Positions 7,041-10,495 of a stretch of DNA of 64,000 nucleotides are shown here, in pieces (positions within the stretch are counted from its first letter, which is position 1; every line of letters begins with the position of its first letter). Made by a program: the position numbers and the translations under genes. This DNA is from Thermococcus henrietii (lineage in GTDB: Archaea; Methanobacteriota_B; Thermococci; Thermococcales; Thermococcaceae): positions 1,426,001-1,490,000 of the forward strand of contig NZ_LT900021.1 in assembly GCF_900198835.1 (NCBI RefSeq), written 5' to 3'. The notes under the pieces were generated by a model. The model had not been told where the DNA came from and ran no database searches. It saw nothing but the letters and a program-made list of their open reading frames with translations.

Positions 7041-7421
7041 CTATTCCTCATGAACCGCGTCCTCTTCGAACTTTTTAACTTCCTCCTTCGTTCCGACCCA
7101 CACGACGAGGGTGGGCTCAACGGTTATCATGCCGTCCTTAATCATCGGCTTGATTTCACATATCGCTTTCTCTATCTTGAACCCCCTGTCCACGACCTCA
7201 ATCACGATAGGCAGGTCCGCCGAGAGGCGCATGACGTCGCTCGAGTGTATGTGGCTCTTCTTTCCGAAGCCGTAGATGCCCCTGTAAACCGTCGCCCCGG
7301 CTATGCCCATTTCGCGGAGCTTTTCAACTATCGCTTTGTAGAGGGGCTTCCCCTTCCAGCGGTCGTTTTCGCCGATGTATATTTTCAGCCTGAGGGTGTT
7401 CCAGTGCTCGACCTCAACCAT
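7041..7421 (-). CDS. DUF190 family protein, CrcB-associated
   Basis: A 126-residue DUF190 protein, ferredoxin-like/PII-like in fold, very often encoded beside crcB in prokaryotes. Recognisable blocks are [18 protein letters not shown], the [18 protein letters not shown] segment and [11 protein letters not shown]. Role unknown; the constant link to crcB suggests sensing or modulating fluoride export. ATG at 7421 follows AAGGAGGTGATTGC, an excellent SD. It starts four bases after the crcB stop and is the last gene of the riboswitch-led operon. Confidence 0.88.
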
Positions 7422-7425
7422 GCAA

Positions 7426-7797
7426 TCACCTCCTTGCCACAATGAAGCCAAGGAATACTAAGCCGATGGTTACAAAAACGTTTGCCAGCACGTTTATGCC
7501 CGCTATGAGGTACTCCCTCTCGCGGAGGAGCGAGAACGTTTCGTAGGAGAATGTTGAAAACGTGCTCAGCGCACCGCAGAAGCCCGTCCCAAGGAAGAGC
7601 CTCCACTCGGGCGTGACATCAATTCCCCAGAAGAGCAGTCCATAGAGGTAGCCGAGGATGAAGCTGGCTACGCTGTTTACCAGCAGGGTTCCCACAGGAA
7701 AGTCCCTGTAGACCGGTAGCAGTCCAGATAGATAGAACCTCGTGAGTGCACCAAGCGCCCCTCCAAGTGCGACCAGGGTTATTAGCTTCGCGTTCAT
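7426..7797 (-). CDS. crcB: Fluoride ion channel CrcB/Fluc
   Basis: Four-TM dual-topology fluoride channel of 123 residues that lets cytosolic fluoride leave the cell. Diagnostic features are the N-terminal [10 protein letters not shown], the Asn of the pore in LLVNSVASF, and [15 protein letters not shown], which holds the Na+-binding break and the phenylalanine-box region. It is complete and of normal length. It is the seventh gene of an operon whose leader resembles the fluoride riboswitch, which independently supports the identification. Confidence 0.96.
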
Positions 7798-7801
7798 GCC
7801 A

Positions 7802-8032
7802 TCACCTCTGCATGTACCTCTCGGCTATCTTGAGGACCTCTTCCCTAGCCCCGTTTCCACCGAGGAGTTTGTTTCGTGAGGAGAGTGCAAAGAGCTTCAT
7901 GGCCAGGTAGAAGTTTTCGTTCAGGACGGTGGTGAGTTTAAACCGCAGGGAAGCTATCTCACGGGAGAGCTCGAAGAGTTCCCTAACGTCATCAACGTTG
8001 TTCCCCTTTGGGTGACCTGAGGAGTCTCTCAT
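7802..8032 (-). CDS. Small helical hypothetical protein in the fluoride operon
   Basis: A 76-residue protein (MRDSSGHPKGNNVDDVRELF...) predicted almost entirely helical, ending about four bases before crcB. I recognise no family. Its N-terminal part overlaps the end of another small gene (7992-8156) by 41 bases; no later start codon is in frame before the helical core, so the overlap looks real. Its LNENFYLAMKLFALSSRNK resembles the DNQNLAIMLSGMIAENKR segment of the protein encoded at 8134-8568, hinting at a common motif within the operon, which is a weak observation by eye. Confidence 0.6.
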   Translation of the reverse strand: MRDSSGHPKGNNVDDVRELFELSREIASLRFKLTTVLNENFYLAMKLFALSSRNKLLGGNGAREEVLKIAERYMQR

Positions 8033-8156
8033 TTTCAGCCCTCAGCCGGGCTATCTCCCTCCGCATGATTTCGGCATCCTTTAAAGCTTTTTGGTACTCC
8101 TCCCTGAGCTTCTCAAGTTCGCGTAGAAGTTCTTCAACCCTTCCCACTTCCCTCAC
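7992..8156 (-). CDS. Very small coiled-coil protein in the fluoride operon
   Basis: A 54-codon reading frame from GTG at 8156 (or GTG at 8147, VGRVEELLRELEKL) to TGA at 7992. The product is a single charged heptad-like helix with LREEYQKALKDAE and IARLRAENERLL, like the C-terminal helices of its operon neighbours. It overlaps the end of the upstream gene (stop at 8134) and the start of the downstream gene, the arrangement expected of translationally coupled genes. The gene is short, so the call depends on the continuity of the operon and the coiled-coil composition. Confidence 0.5.
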   Translation of the reverse strand: MREVGRVEELLRELEKLREEYQKALKDAEIMRREIARLRAENERLLRSPKGEQR

Positions 8157-8568
8157 CGAACGCGGATGACATGTAGTAGTGTATCAGCTCCTCCACCTTC
8201 GAGTAGTCCCTTTCCGGCATGCCGAGCATCTTCCTCAACCTCTTGTTCTCGGCTATCATCCCCGAGAGCATTATCGCCAGGTTCTGGTTGTCCATGGCCG
8301 AGTAGTACGTCTTGAACTTTAAGGGGGACCAGTGACCTTCGAGCTCGTAAAGTTTCTCCTCAAGCCCGTTTATTTCCTCTTCAATTCTTCTTAGCTCCTC
8401 GTCATTAACTTCCTCGTCAACGTATCCATCGAGGAGGATAACCCGAAGTGCTTCTTCAATTCGAAAACCGTGCTTTTTGCTCACTTCTTCTATTCGCCGC
8501 CACAGGTCGTCGGGTATTGTGAAGCTAACCTTTCTCCACCTTCCCTTTGCCCACACCGTTATCTTCAT
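8134..8568 (-). CDS. Hypothetical protein with RHH-like N-terminus and coiled coil
   Basis: A 144-residue protein beginning MKITVWAKGRWRKVSF. Residues about 15-48 (SFTIPDDLWRRIEEVSKKHG) resemble a ribbon-helix-helix DNA-binding motif: a basic beta strand, then two helices. It is followed by an acidic coiled coil and the helical MIAENKRLRKMLG. A DNA-binding or membrane-adaptor role are both possible; I do not recognise the family. The ATG at 8568 has GGGTGGTG upstream. It overlaps the preceding gene by 44 bases. Confidence 0.65.
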   Translation of the reverse strand: MKITVWAKGRWRKVSFTIPDDLWRRIEEVSKKHGFRIEEALRVILLDGYVDEEVNDEELRRIEEEINGLEEKLYELEGHWSPLKFKTYYSAMDNQNLAIMLSGMIAENKRLRKMLGMPERDYSKVEELIHYYMSSAFGEGSGKG

Positions 8569-9519: not shown

Positions 9520-9528
9520 AGGCCTTCA

Positions 9529-10395
9529 CTAAACGAAGCGTGAGGCGAACTCAACGACCGCCAGCGCGCGGTAGGTGTTCTGGAAGTTCGAGATTCCGAG
9601 TTCTATACTCCTCCTGAATCCCCCGTTGGGATTCTGAAGCTGGCGGATGAACCATATGTGCCTCCTCGGACAGGAAGGCGCTTCGTCCTGAATCTCCAGT
9701 CCCCTGGAGGCATAGAACGTTGGCTCTAGGTATGGTGGAAGACTGTAGGGCACCTCGGTAAAGCCTCCCCAATCACCACAGAGCTCACAGTTCCTGAAGT
9801 GGGGACTCTTCGGCGGGTGATAGCCGAGTTTGCGAAGGCTGAATATCGCCTGATACGTCATAGTCGTAGTCGGCTGCTTGACGCCGTAGCCGTTGCCGTT
9901 GCGGAACTTCATGACGAACTCCCTTATGGCTTCCCTCTCGTCGGGGTTAAACTTGAGGCCGATTGCATCGAAGGCCTTTGTGACCCAGTAGGTGGCCTCG
10001 AGCGGCGTTGCCGTTCCAAACTCCTCGCTCCCCCCGAGTCCAACCGCGAACTTGCCCTCCGCGGGGTTGTACTTGGTGAAGACTATCTCACTCCTCTCCC
10101 TCGCCACGTCCTTGGCCCCGAGAACGGCCAGCCCCTCAAGCGCCATCGCTATTGCCACGACGGCCGTCTGGGGCTGTATCGCATTTGCAAGGAACTCTAT
10201 AGTCTTCTCGGGCTCTGGAAAGTCCAGGTCCAATAGCTCGTAAATCTTGACCGCGTAGTAGGTGTCGTTTACGTTCGTATCGTCGAGAAGGCTCACGAAG
10301 CAGTACCCTCCGTCCTCGTGGCGCCTCTCTCCCACGTATTTGAGAACCGCATCAACGTTAACGTAACGGGCAATCCTGTCGAACTTGGAGACCAT
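9529..10395 (-). CDS. Prenyltransferase/squalene-cyclase-like alpha-alpha toroid protein
   Basis: A 288-residue cytosolic protein made of terpene-cyclase/prenyltransferase beta-subunit type repeats: EDGGYCFVSLLDDTNVNDT, GNGYGVKQPTTTMTYQAIF and NPNGGFRRSIELGISNFQN are the GGF-type turns, each followed by a helix of the kind YYAVKIYELL. Such toroids include prenyltransferases, but I see no clear catalytic DxDD or the zinc ligands of the eukaryotic enzymes, so enzymatic function is unproven. CELCGDWGG may bind metal. Start ATG at 10395 has GGGGGTGAGGG upstream and lies 18 bases after the fluoride aptamer, making it the directly controlled gene. Confidence 0.8.
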   Translation of the reverse strand: MVSKFDRIARYVNVDAVLKYVGERRHEDGGYCFVSLLDDTNVNDTYYAVKIYELLDLDFPEPEKTIEFLANAIQPQTAVVAIAMALEGLAVLGAKDVARERSEIVFTKYNPAEGKFAVGLGGSEEFGTATPLEATYWVTKAFDAIGLKFNPDEREAIREFVMKFRNGNGYGVKQPTTTMTYQAIFSLRKLGYHPPKSPHFRNCELCGDWGGFTEVPYSLPPYLEPTFYASRGLEIQDEAPSCPRRHIWFIRQLQNPNGGFRRSIELGISNFQNTYRALAVVEFASRFV

Positions 10396-10413
10396 ACCCT
10401 CACCCCCCGGACG

Positions 10414-10465
10414 CAGAACAGGCGTCATCAGGCCCGGCGGGCCGTTAGGGCGGACGCCATCGCCC
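10414..10465 (-). promoter_or_regulatory. Fluoride riboswitch (crcB motif)
   Basis: A 52-nt minus-strand element starts GGGCGATGG and keeps every helix of the fluoride aptamer. One pairing is GGGC with GCCC, closing a loop at the 5' end. The second is GGCGTC (from 10458) with GACGCC (to 10421), forming the pseudoknot-type architecture. The third is the hairpin GGCCC-GCC-GGGCC (10443-10431). It is followed by the conserved TGATG and ends CTG. As I remember it, the Thermotoga petrophila aptamer has the same length and layout but different paired bases, that is, compensatory changes. The element begins at the predicted TSS. Confidence 0.9.
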
Positions 10466-10487
10466 GAGCATTCACTCCCGGTGGTGA

Positions 10488-10495
10488 CTTAAAAA
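10488..10495 (-). promoter_or_regulatory. TATA box of the fluoride operon
   Basis: TTTTTAAG on the minus strand, centred about 26 bases before 10465. The predicted transcript therefore starts on the first base of the aptamer. No other TATA-like element is seen between the genes of the operon down to 7041. Confidence 0.65.

Follow-up and report, generated by a model that had tools for sequence, protein, structure and literature searches.

Fluoride riboswitches (Rfam class RF01734) have so far led reliably to genes that act in fluoride stress. The genes known to be associated with bacterial fluoride riboswitches include those for exporters, Na+/H+ antiporters, pyrophosphatase, enolase and formate hydrogenlyase (PMC11139923, PMC2864571), the last being the term applied to complex-I-like riboswitch targets (PMC2864571). 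For an archaeon, Thermococcus kodakarensis, the primary transcriptome places the crcB RNA upstream of TK0513 and not of crcB itself, i.e., TK0514 (PMC4247193). Here we describe a related locus in a stretch of 64,000 nucleotides (nt) of Thermococcus henrietii (contig NZ_LT900021.1, positions 1,426,001 to 1,490,000; "the window", to which unspecified coordinates refer), in which a fluoride aptamer is followed on the minus strand by eight genes (g1 to g8), encoding an alpha/alpha-toroid protein (hereafter the toroid protein), a DUF6062 protein, four small helical proteins, the exporter CrcB and a DUF190 protein. Our analyses suggest that this locus comprises a fluoride-responsive unit with the toroid gene as its direct target and, next to it, a separately promoted exporter unit consisting of crcB and the DUF190 gene; we give this reading a probability of roughly 0.75. 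Across nearly the whole family Thermococcaceae, which comprises hyperthermophilic archaea, the riboswitch points to one strongly conserved, uncharacterised protein rather than to the exporter.

A fluoride aptamer had been proposed before the first gene in an initial annotation, and the Rfam covariance model bore this out, as RF01734 matched positions 10473-10412 of the minus strand over the full model (1-64) with a score of 37.2 bits (gathering score 34; E = 1.1e-6). The aptamer core, GGGCGATGG, begins at position 10465, approx. 22 nt past the TATA box; the aptamer contains a pseudoknot in which GGCGTC (10458-10453) pairs with GACGCC (10426-10421). The aptamer sits in a 5' leader, upstream of the toroid ATG (10395) and with a promoter site just 5' of it. 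When both strands of the window (i.e., 128 kb of strand) were scanned with a promoter matrix trained on the riboswitch promoters of other genomes, this promoter represented the top site (score of 18.5 with the window excluded from training), and the spacing between promoter and aptamer is kept in relatives. A scan for sigma-70 promoters was empty; the sigma-70 model is not applicable to archaea. As judged by sequence and structure match, the window contains a genuine fluoride aptamer, which resembles other members of RF01734 in its full-model match, its location in a 5' leader and the presence of an exporter among the associated genes.

RF01734 was run against 94 Thermococcaceae genomes and the toroid alignment against 115 genomes of the phylum, and gene order was examined in approx. 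80 loci. Among Thermococcaceae, 88 of 90 toroid genes are preceded on the same strand by an aptamer at a distance of 13-45 nt. Conversely, 88 of the 103 aptamers found in this family precede a toroid gene and the remaining 15 precede a complex-I-like operon; none is located directly before crcB, which sets these aptamers apart from the RF01734 class. The toroid gene itself is single-copy, occurs in every good Thermococcaceae genome and shows strong conservation (column identity averages 78%). The most common order was aptamer, toroid, DUF6062, g3, g4, crcB, DUF190. As the arrangement riboswitch-toroid-(DUF6062-g3-g4)-crcB-DUF190 is found across Thermococcaceae, it is not due to chance. Overall, the picture in which the toroid gene is the probable direct aptamer target, with crcB separate, is well supported by these genome comparisons and by the literature. 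The locus shares with bacterial fluoride-riboswitch genes the presence of crcB, a complex-I-like operon as second target in the genome and, in relatives, a nearby antiporter gene; the toroid protein, DUF6062 and the small helical proteins, on the other hand, are not among the genes named in the available sections of the bacterial papers (PMC11139923, PMC2864571).

It could be argued that the aptamer ancestrally regulates crcB and that the toroid gene and its companions are inserted passengers, as the middle genes are variably present (DUF6062 or the entire middle gene set is absent from some genomes) and as the aptamer directly precedes crcB-DUF190 in one genome of another Thermococci family (G110), so that this arrangement also exists in the class Thermococci. 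However, aptamer and toroid gene remain joined where crcB leaves. In a Pyrococcus-like genus (with fen1 adjacent), the aptamer is followed by toroid, g3 and g4, and crcB is found far off with no aptamer nearby; crcB is likewise distant from the aptamer in genome G020. Moreover, in G080 the toroid gene is disrupted and the aptamer lost together with it, with crcB being retained. Another genome from outside the family (G099, other Thermococci family) shows the order crcB-DUF190, aptamer, dynamin-family gene, a gene for 101 amino acids and a divergent toroid gene (PF00432, 5e-16), and this rearranged association of aptamer and toroid also argues against the toroid gene as a passenger. As toroid codons 2 to 4 furthermore appear to be tied to the aptamer (see below) and the protein is strongly conserved, we consider a passenger role very unlikely.

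The initial annotation had also taken the eight genes to be a single operon, seemingly made only under fluoride and with no promoter parting crcB from gene 1. Open reading frame (ORF) coordinates and Pfam assignments agree with its description of tight packing behind the aptamer with crcB as gene 7 (gaps of 9, 4 and 4 nt; overlaps at the remaining junctions). This packing, along with a conserved gene set in which crcB-DUF190 is usually next on the same strand, would be consistent with one polycistronic fluoride operon in which the riboswitch controls all eight genes and all eight serve fluoride tolerance. However, a strong predicted promoter was found inside g5, which ranks second in the window, behind the riboswitch promoter only; its score was reached by random synonymous recoding of the g5 peptide with P = 1e-4. 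Close relatives lacking g5-g6 show a near-identical promoter (e.g., CCGAAAAGTTTTAAAGGA) just before crcB, and in T. kodakarensis a start site for crcB was mapped between TK0513 and TK0514 (PMC4247193). The supposed absence of a promoter between gene 1 and crcB thus probably does not hold. In addition, g4 or g1 is parted from crcB in 8 genomes (loci L053, L057, L062, L067, L068, L070, L075 and L076) by an oppositely oriented gene, identified by sequence reading as encoding a cation/proton (Na+/H+) antiporter, the Pyrococcus-like genomes have crcB at another site with no aptamer, and in several genomes DUF6062-g3-g4 is missing and the toroid gene is then directly followed by crcB. At L062, a transposase-like gene has disrupted the antiporter gene. 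Given the g5 promoter, the promoters of relatives and the T. kodakarensis start site, the claim that all eight genes depend on fluoride is unsupported, and a single fluoride operon seems unlikely. Accordingly, crcB-DUF190 very probably has its own promoter, and the riboswitch alone probably does not control crcB in the window. The adjacent toroid-crcB order of several relatives fits the published T. kodakarensis locus (PMC4247193), in which TK0513 would, by our reading, be the toroid gene; in the window, by contrast, six genes separate crcB from the aptamer.

The aptamer of most relatives has an insertion, GGGCTTCGAGCCC, after which comes GAACCGCC. Their complementary partners are the Shine-Dalgarno region GGCGGT and ATGGGCTCGAAGC, the latter representing codons 1 to 5 (MGSKL) of the toroid gene. 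In the resulting 17-pair helix between aptamer and Shine-Dalgarno region plus codons 1 to 5 (the predicted OFF helix), 95.3% of cells are paired, as compared to 28-49% when the strands are slid by 1 to 3 columns, and 49 of 60 leaders show no more than one unpaired position. Toroid codons 2 to 4 are nearly fixed as GGC (61/61), TCG (59/61) and AAG (60/60); TCG represents 19% of the serine codons in the toroid gene, and codon 3 is the most biased of 172 columns. The predicted switch accounts for this oddly fixed codon run at the gene start. Overall, the aptamer is likely to represent a translational ON switch for the toroid gene in most relatives, and the toroid protein is likely to be fluoride-induced, as a genuine aptamer precedes its gene and the pairing is conserved. 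As compared to the RF01734 class, the control predicted here operates on translation and extends into codons 1 to 5 in most species. In the window leader, GCGTC (10414-10410) could pair with the aptamer GACGC to form a hairpin rivalling the pseudoknot, and the Shine-Dalgarno sequence can be drawn as paired with aptamer sequence.

Under the favored reading, in which the toroid gene is the direct target, the RNA and the aptamer would begin at the same base. In the absence of fluoride, part of the aptamer would pair with the ribosome-binding site, and additionally with codons 1 to 5 in most relatives, blocking translation; with Mg-fluoride, the aptamer would close, the start region would be freed and the toroid protein would be made. 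As it is apparently the translation of gene 1 on which the aptamer acts, an effect on genes 2 to 5 would need coupling; DUF6062, g3, g4 and g5 may be made by readthrough and translational coupling of the overlapping genes, and fluoride dependence of genes 2 to 5 by this route is possible. The internal promoter of g5 would drive crcB-DUF190 independently.

Several observations weigh against this reading. Compensatory changes are absent from the OFF helix, as its columns are nearly invariant, and column shuffles are not exceeded; the case for the helix is therefore built on complementarity and on the constraint seen in the codons. The window leader is not more stably folded than shuffled sequences (z = 0.68), does not contain the insertion typical of relatives and precedes a protein starting with MVSKF rather than MGSKL. 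Genome G012, in which no crcB was detected, keeps a toroid gene without an intact aptamer, and fluoride control is therefore not always needed. The promoter inside g5 is predicted from the matrix, and crcB could also be reached by readthrough. Finally, the function of the toroid protein is deduced from its fold alone. With regard to G012, the aptamer is mostly deleted at this locus (L155), leaving the 3' remnant GATGGCGCCTATTCT, and the toroid gene is intact with MGSKL codons.

Assignment of g1 to the alpha/alpha-toroid fold is based on PF00432 and on Foldseek comparisons of an AlphaFold model (predicted local distance difference test [pLDDT] 91.5; predicted template modelling [TM] score 0.90), which matched RabGGTase and FTase beta subunits as well as squalene(-hopene) cyclases in the PDB (E approx. 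1e-5, TM 0.6-0.7). The toroid protein thus shares its fold with prenyltransferase beta subunits and class II terpene cyclases by hidden Markov model (HMM) and structure comparison, and differs from them in being a single small domain without the conserved catalytic motifs. Zinc ligands of prenyltransferases are provided by D-x-C and H; this D-x-C...H set is not conserved among 23-24 toroid relatives, in which C32 is the only invariant Cys. Similarly, the DxDD motif of class II terpene cyclases was not found in the toroid alignment, which shows an invariant T-N-x-N-D-T at the equivalent repeat. As neither the zinc-ligand pattern nor DxDD is conserved, an orthodox prenyltransferase or terpene cyclase is unlikely by sequence. 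An active enzyme of either type, with membrane lipids or proteins as its substrates during fluoride stress, would be in line with the fold matches and with the conserved polar residues at the toroid repeats, but HMM similarity to RabGGTase is at the level of repeats only, and along with the missing motifs this makes such an activity improbable. The most conserved stretch, GLGGSEEFGT (119-128), coincides with the sole poorly modelled loop (119-126) and may represent an active or ligand-binding loop.

With its prenyltransferase-beta/terpene-cyclase type barrel and conserved polar cavity, the toroid protein might act as a ligand-binding protein or as a non-zinc enzyme, with lipid, phosphate or metal-fluoride as candidate ligands, and we tentatively take it to be a cytoplasmic fluoride-tolerance factor that acts alongside export. 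The broader proposal that the toroid protein, often with DUF6062 and g3-g4, constitutes an unrecognised Thermococcales fluoride-tolerance system apart from export, under a translational switch that pairs the aptamer with the first five codons, appears to us evenly poised. For a role in membrane repair, the sole hint comes from a single, distant genome of the Thermococci, where a dynamin-family gene lies behind a fluoride aptamer. A limited literature search gave no account of prenyltransferases or of dynamins with fluoride riboswitches. Separately, at this dynamin locus (L165; G099:C25, 5612-8432, minus strand) the dynamin-family GTPase gene is located directly behind the aptamer, with the divergent toroid gene downstream. 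Among GTDB contigs, the toroid protein was found in Thermococci only, by a pattern-based scan that returned only fragmentary genomes and does not prove this restriction. The riboswitch class is already known and the position of the crcB RNA before TK0513 is published; the near-universal toroid target, the independence of the toroid gene from crcB and the predicted switch helix reaching into the coding region appear to be new here. As T. kodakarensis is genetically tractable, the role of the toroid protein is accessible to testing.

Table 1. Features of the fluoride-riboswitch locus in the T. henrietii window (aa, amino acids; BRE, B recognition element)
Feature	Position	Strand	Basis
BRE/TATA promoter CCAAGATGTTTTTAAGTC	10486..10503	-	promoter matrix; start predicted at approx. 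10465, first aptamer base
Fluoride riboswitch aptamer	10412..10473	-	Rfam RF01734, full length
Putative expression platform: GCGTC (10414-10410) and Shine-Dalgarno GGGGGGTGAGGG (10408-10397)	10397..10414	-	sequence; duplex predicted at -27.5 kcal/mol
g1, alpha/alpha-toroid protein, 288 aa, directly behind aptamer	9529..10395	-	PF00432, 6.4e-11
g2, DUF6062 protein, 223 aa	8848..9519	-	PF19538, 1.8e-15; 57.5 vs. cut-off 27 bits
g3, coiled-coil protein, 114 aa, TTG start	8525..8869	-	conserved ORF, alignment
g4, approx. 144 aa, possible ribbon-helix-helix N-terminus	approx. 8134..8568	-	alignment; tentative
g5, 54-aa coiled-coil protein, holds internal promoter	7992..8156	-	ORF; homologues in other genera
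Internal promoter CCAAAAAGCTTTAAAGGA for (g6-)crcB-DUF190, inside g5, start approx. 8057	8077..8094	-	matrix score 18.0, predicted
g6, small helical protein, up to 76 aa	approx. 7802..8032	-	ORF; paralogue beside second riboswitch
g7, CrcB/Fluc fluoride exporter	7426..7797	-	PF02537, 7e-30; TIGR00494, 89.9 vs. 80.45 bits
g8, DUF190 (COG1993) protein	7041..7421	-	PF02641, 9.6e-39; synteny

The DUF6062 protein contains two invariant CxxC...CxxH sets that resemble metal sites (C17, C20, C55, H58 and C98, C101, C134, H137). Its model is all-alpha (pLDDT 83.6) and matched neither PDB nor viral structures, and a limited literature search on DUF6062 found nothing. Within the phylum, DUF6062 was found only in Thermococcaceae, where the listed places adjoin the toroid gene (coordinates compared by eye). 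Searches of Pfam, NCBIfam and the PDB with g3 to g6 gave only generic (low-complexity) coiled-coil matches. The g4 C-terminus carries a conserved helical motif, LAI.LSG.IAENKRLR..L; RHH_1 matched 2 of 23 g4 members (best E = 0.0016; window member not matched) and a NikR match was weak (E = 0.98), so g4 may, tentatively, start with a ribbon-helix-helix domain. The g6 protein is a paralogue of the C-terminal part of g4. The two coiled-coil pairs, g3-g4 and g5-g6, appear to be paralogous to each other. A third g3-g4-like pair is present at L166 (G000:C1, 5692-6428, minus strand) beside a DNA-glycosylase-like gene, with no adjoining riboswitch. The DUF190 gene adjoins crcB in nearly all loci.

The same genome carries, outside the window, a second fluoride aptamer (G000:C1:1313684-1313748, minus strand; loci L018/L031), which precedes a six-gene operon resembling complex I and group-4 hydrogenases, as do all 15 non-toroid aptamers found. 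The 49-kDa-like subunit of this operon contains three Cys only and no CxxC, and no NiFe site is therefore evident. In 15 of 15 leaders (e.g., L031, L032, L044), a second copy of the pseudoknot strand GACGCC is present between the Shine-Dalgarno sequence GGAGGTG and the NTG start, which suggests that two GACGCC copies may compete for one aptamer loop. At 9 of the 15 loci (L031 and eight others), two small coiled-coil genes, paralogues of g5/g6, lie between valS and the second aptamer, immediately upstream of the latter.

Upstream of the window aptamer, an archaemetzincin (peptidase M54) gene is located in divergent orientation (10560-11267, plus strand), and a near-palindromic TATA box at approx. 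10539-10522 may serve this gene.

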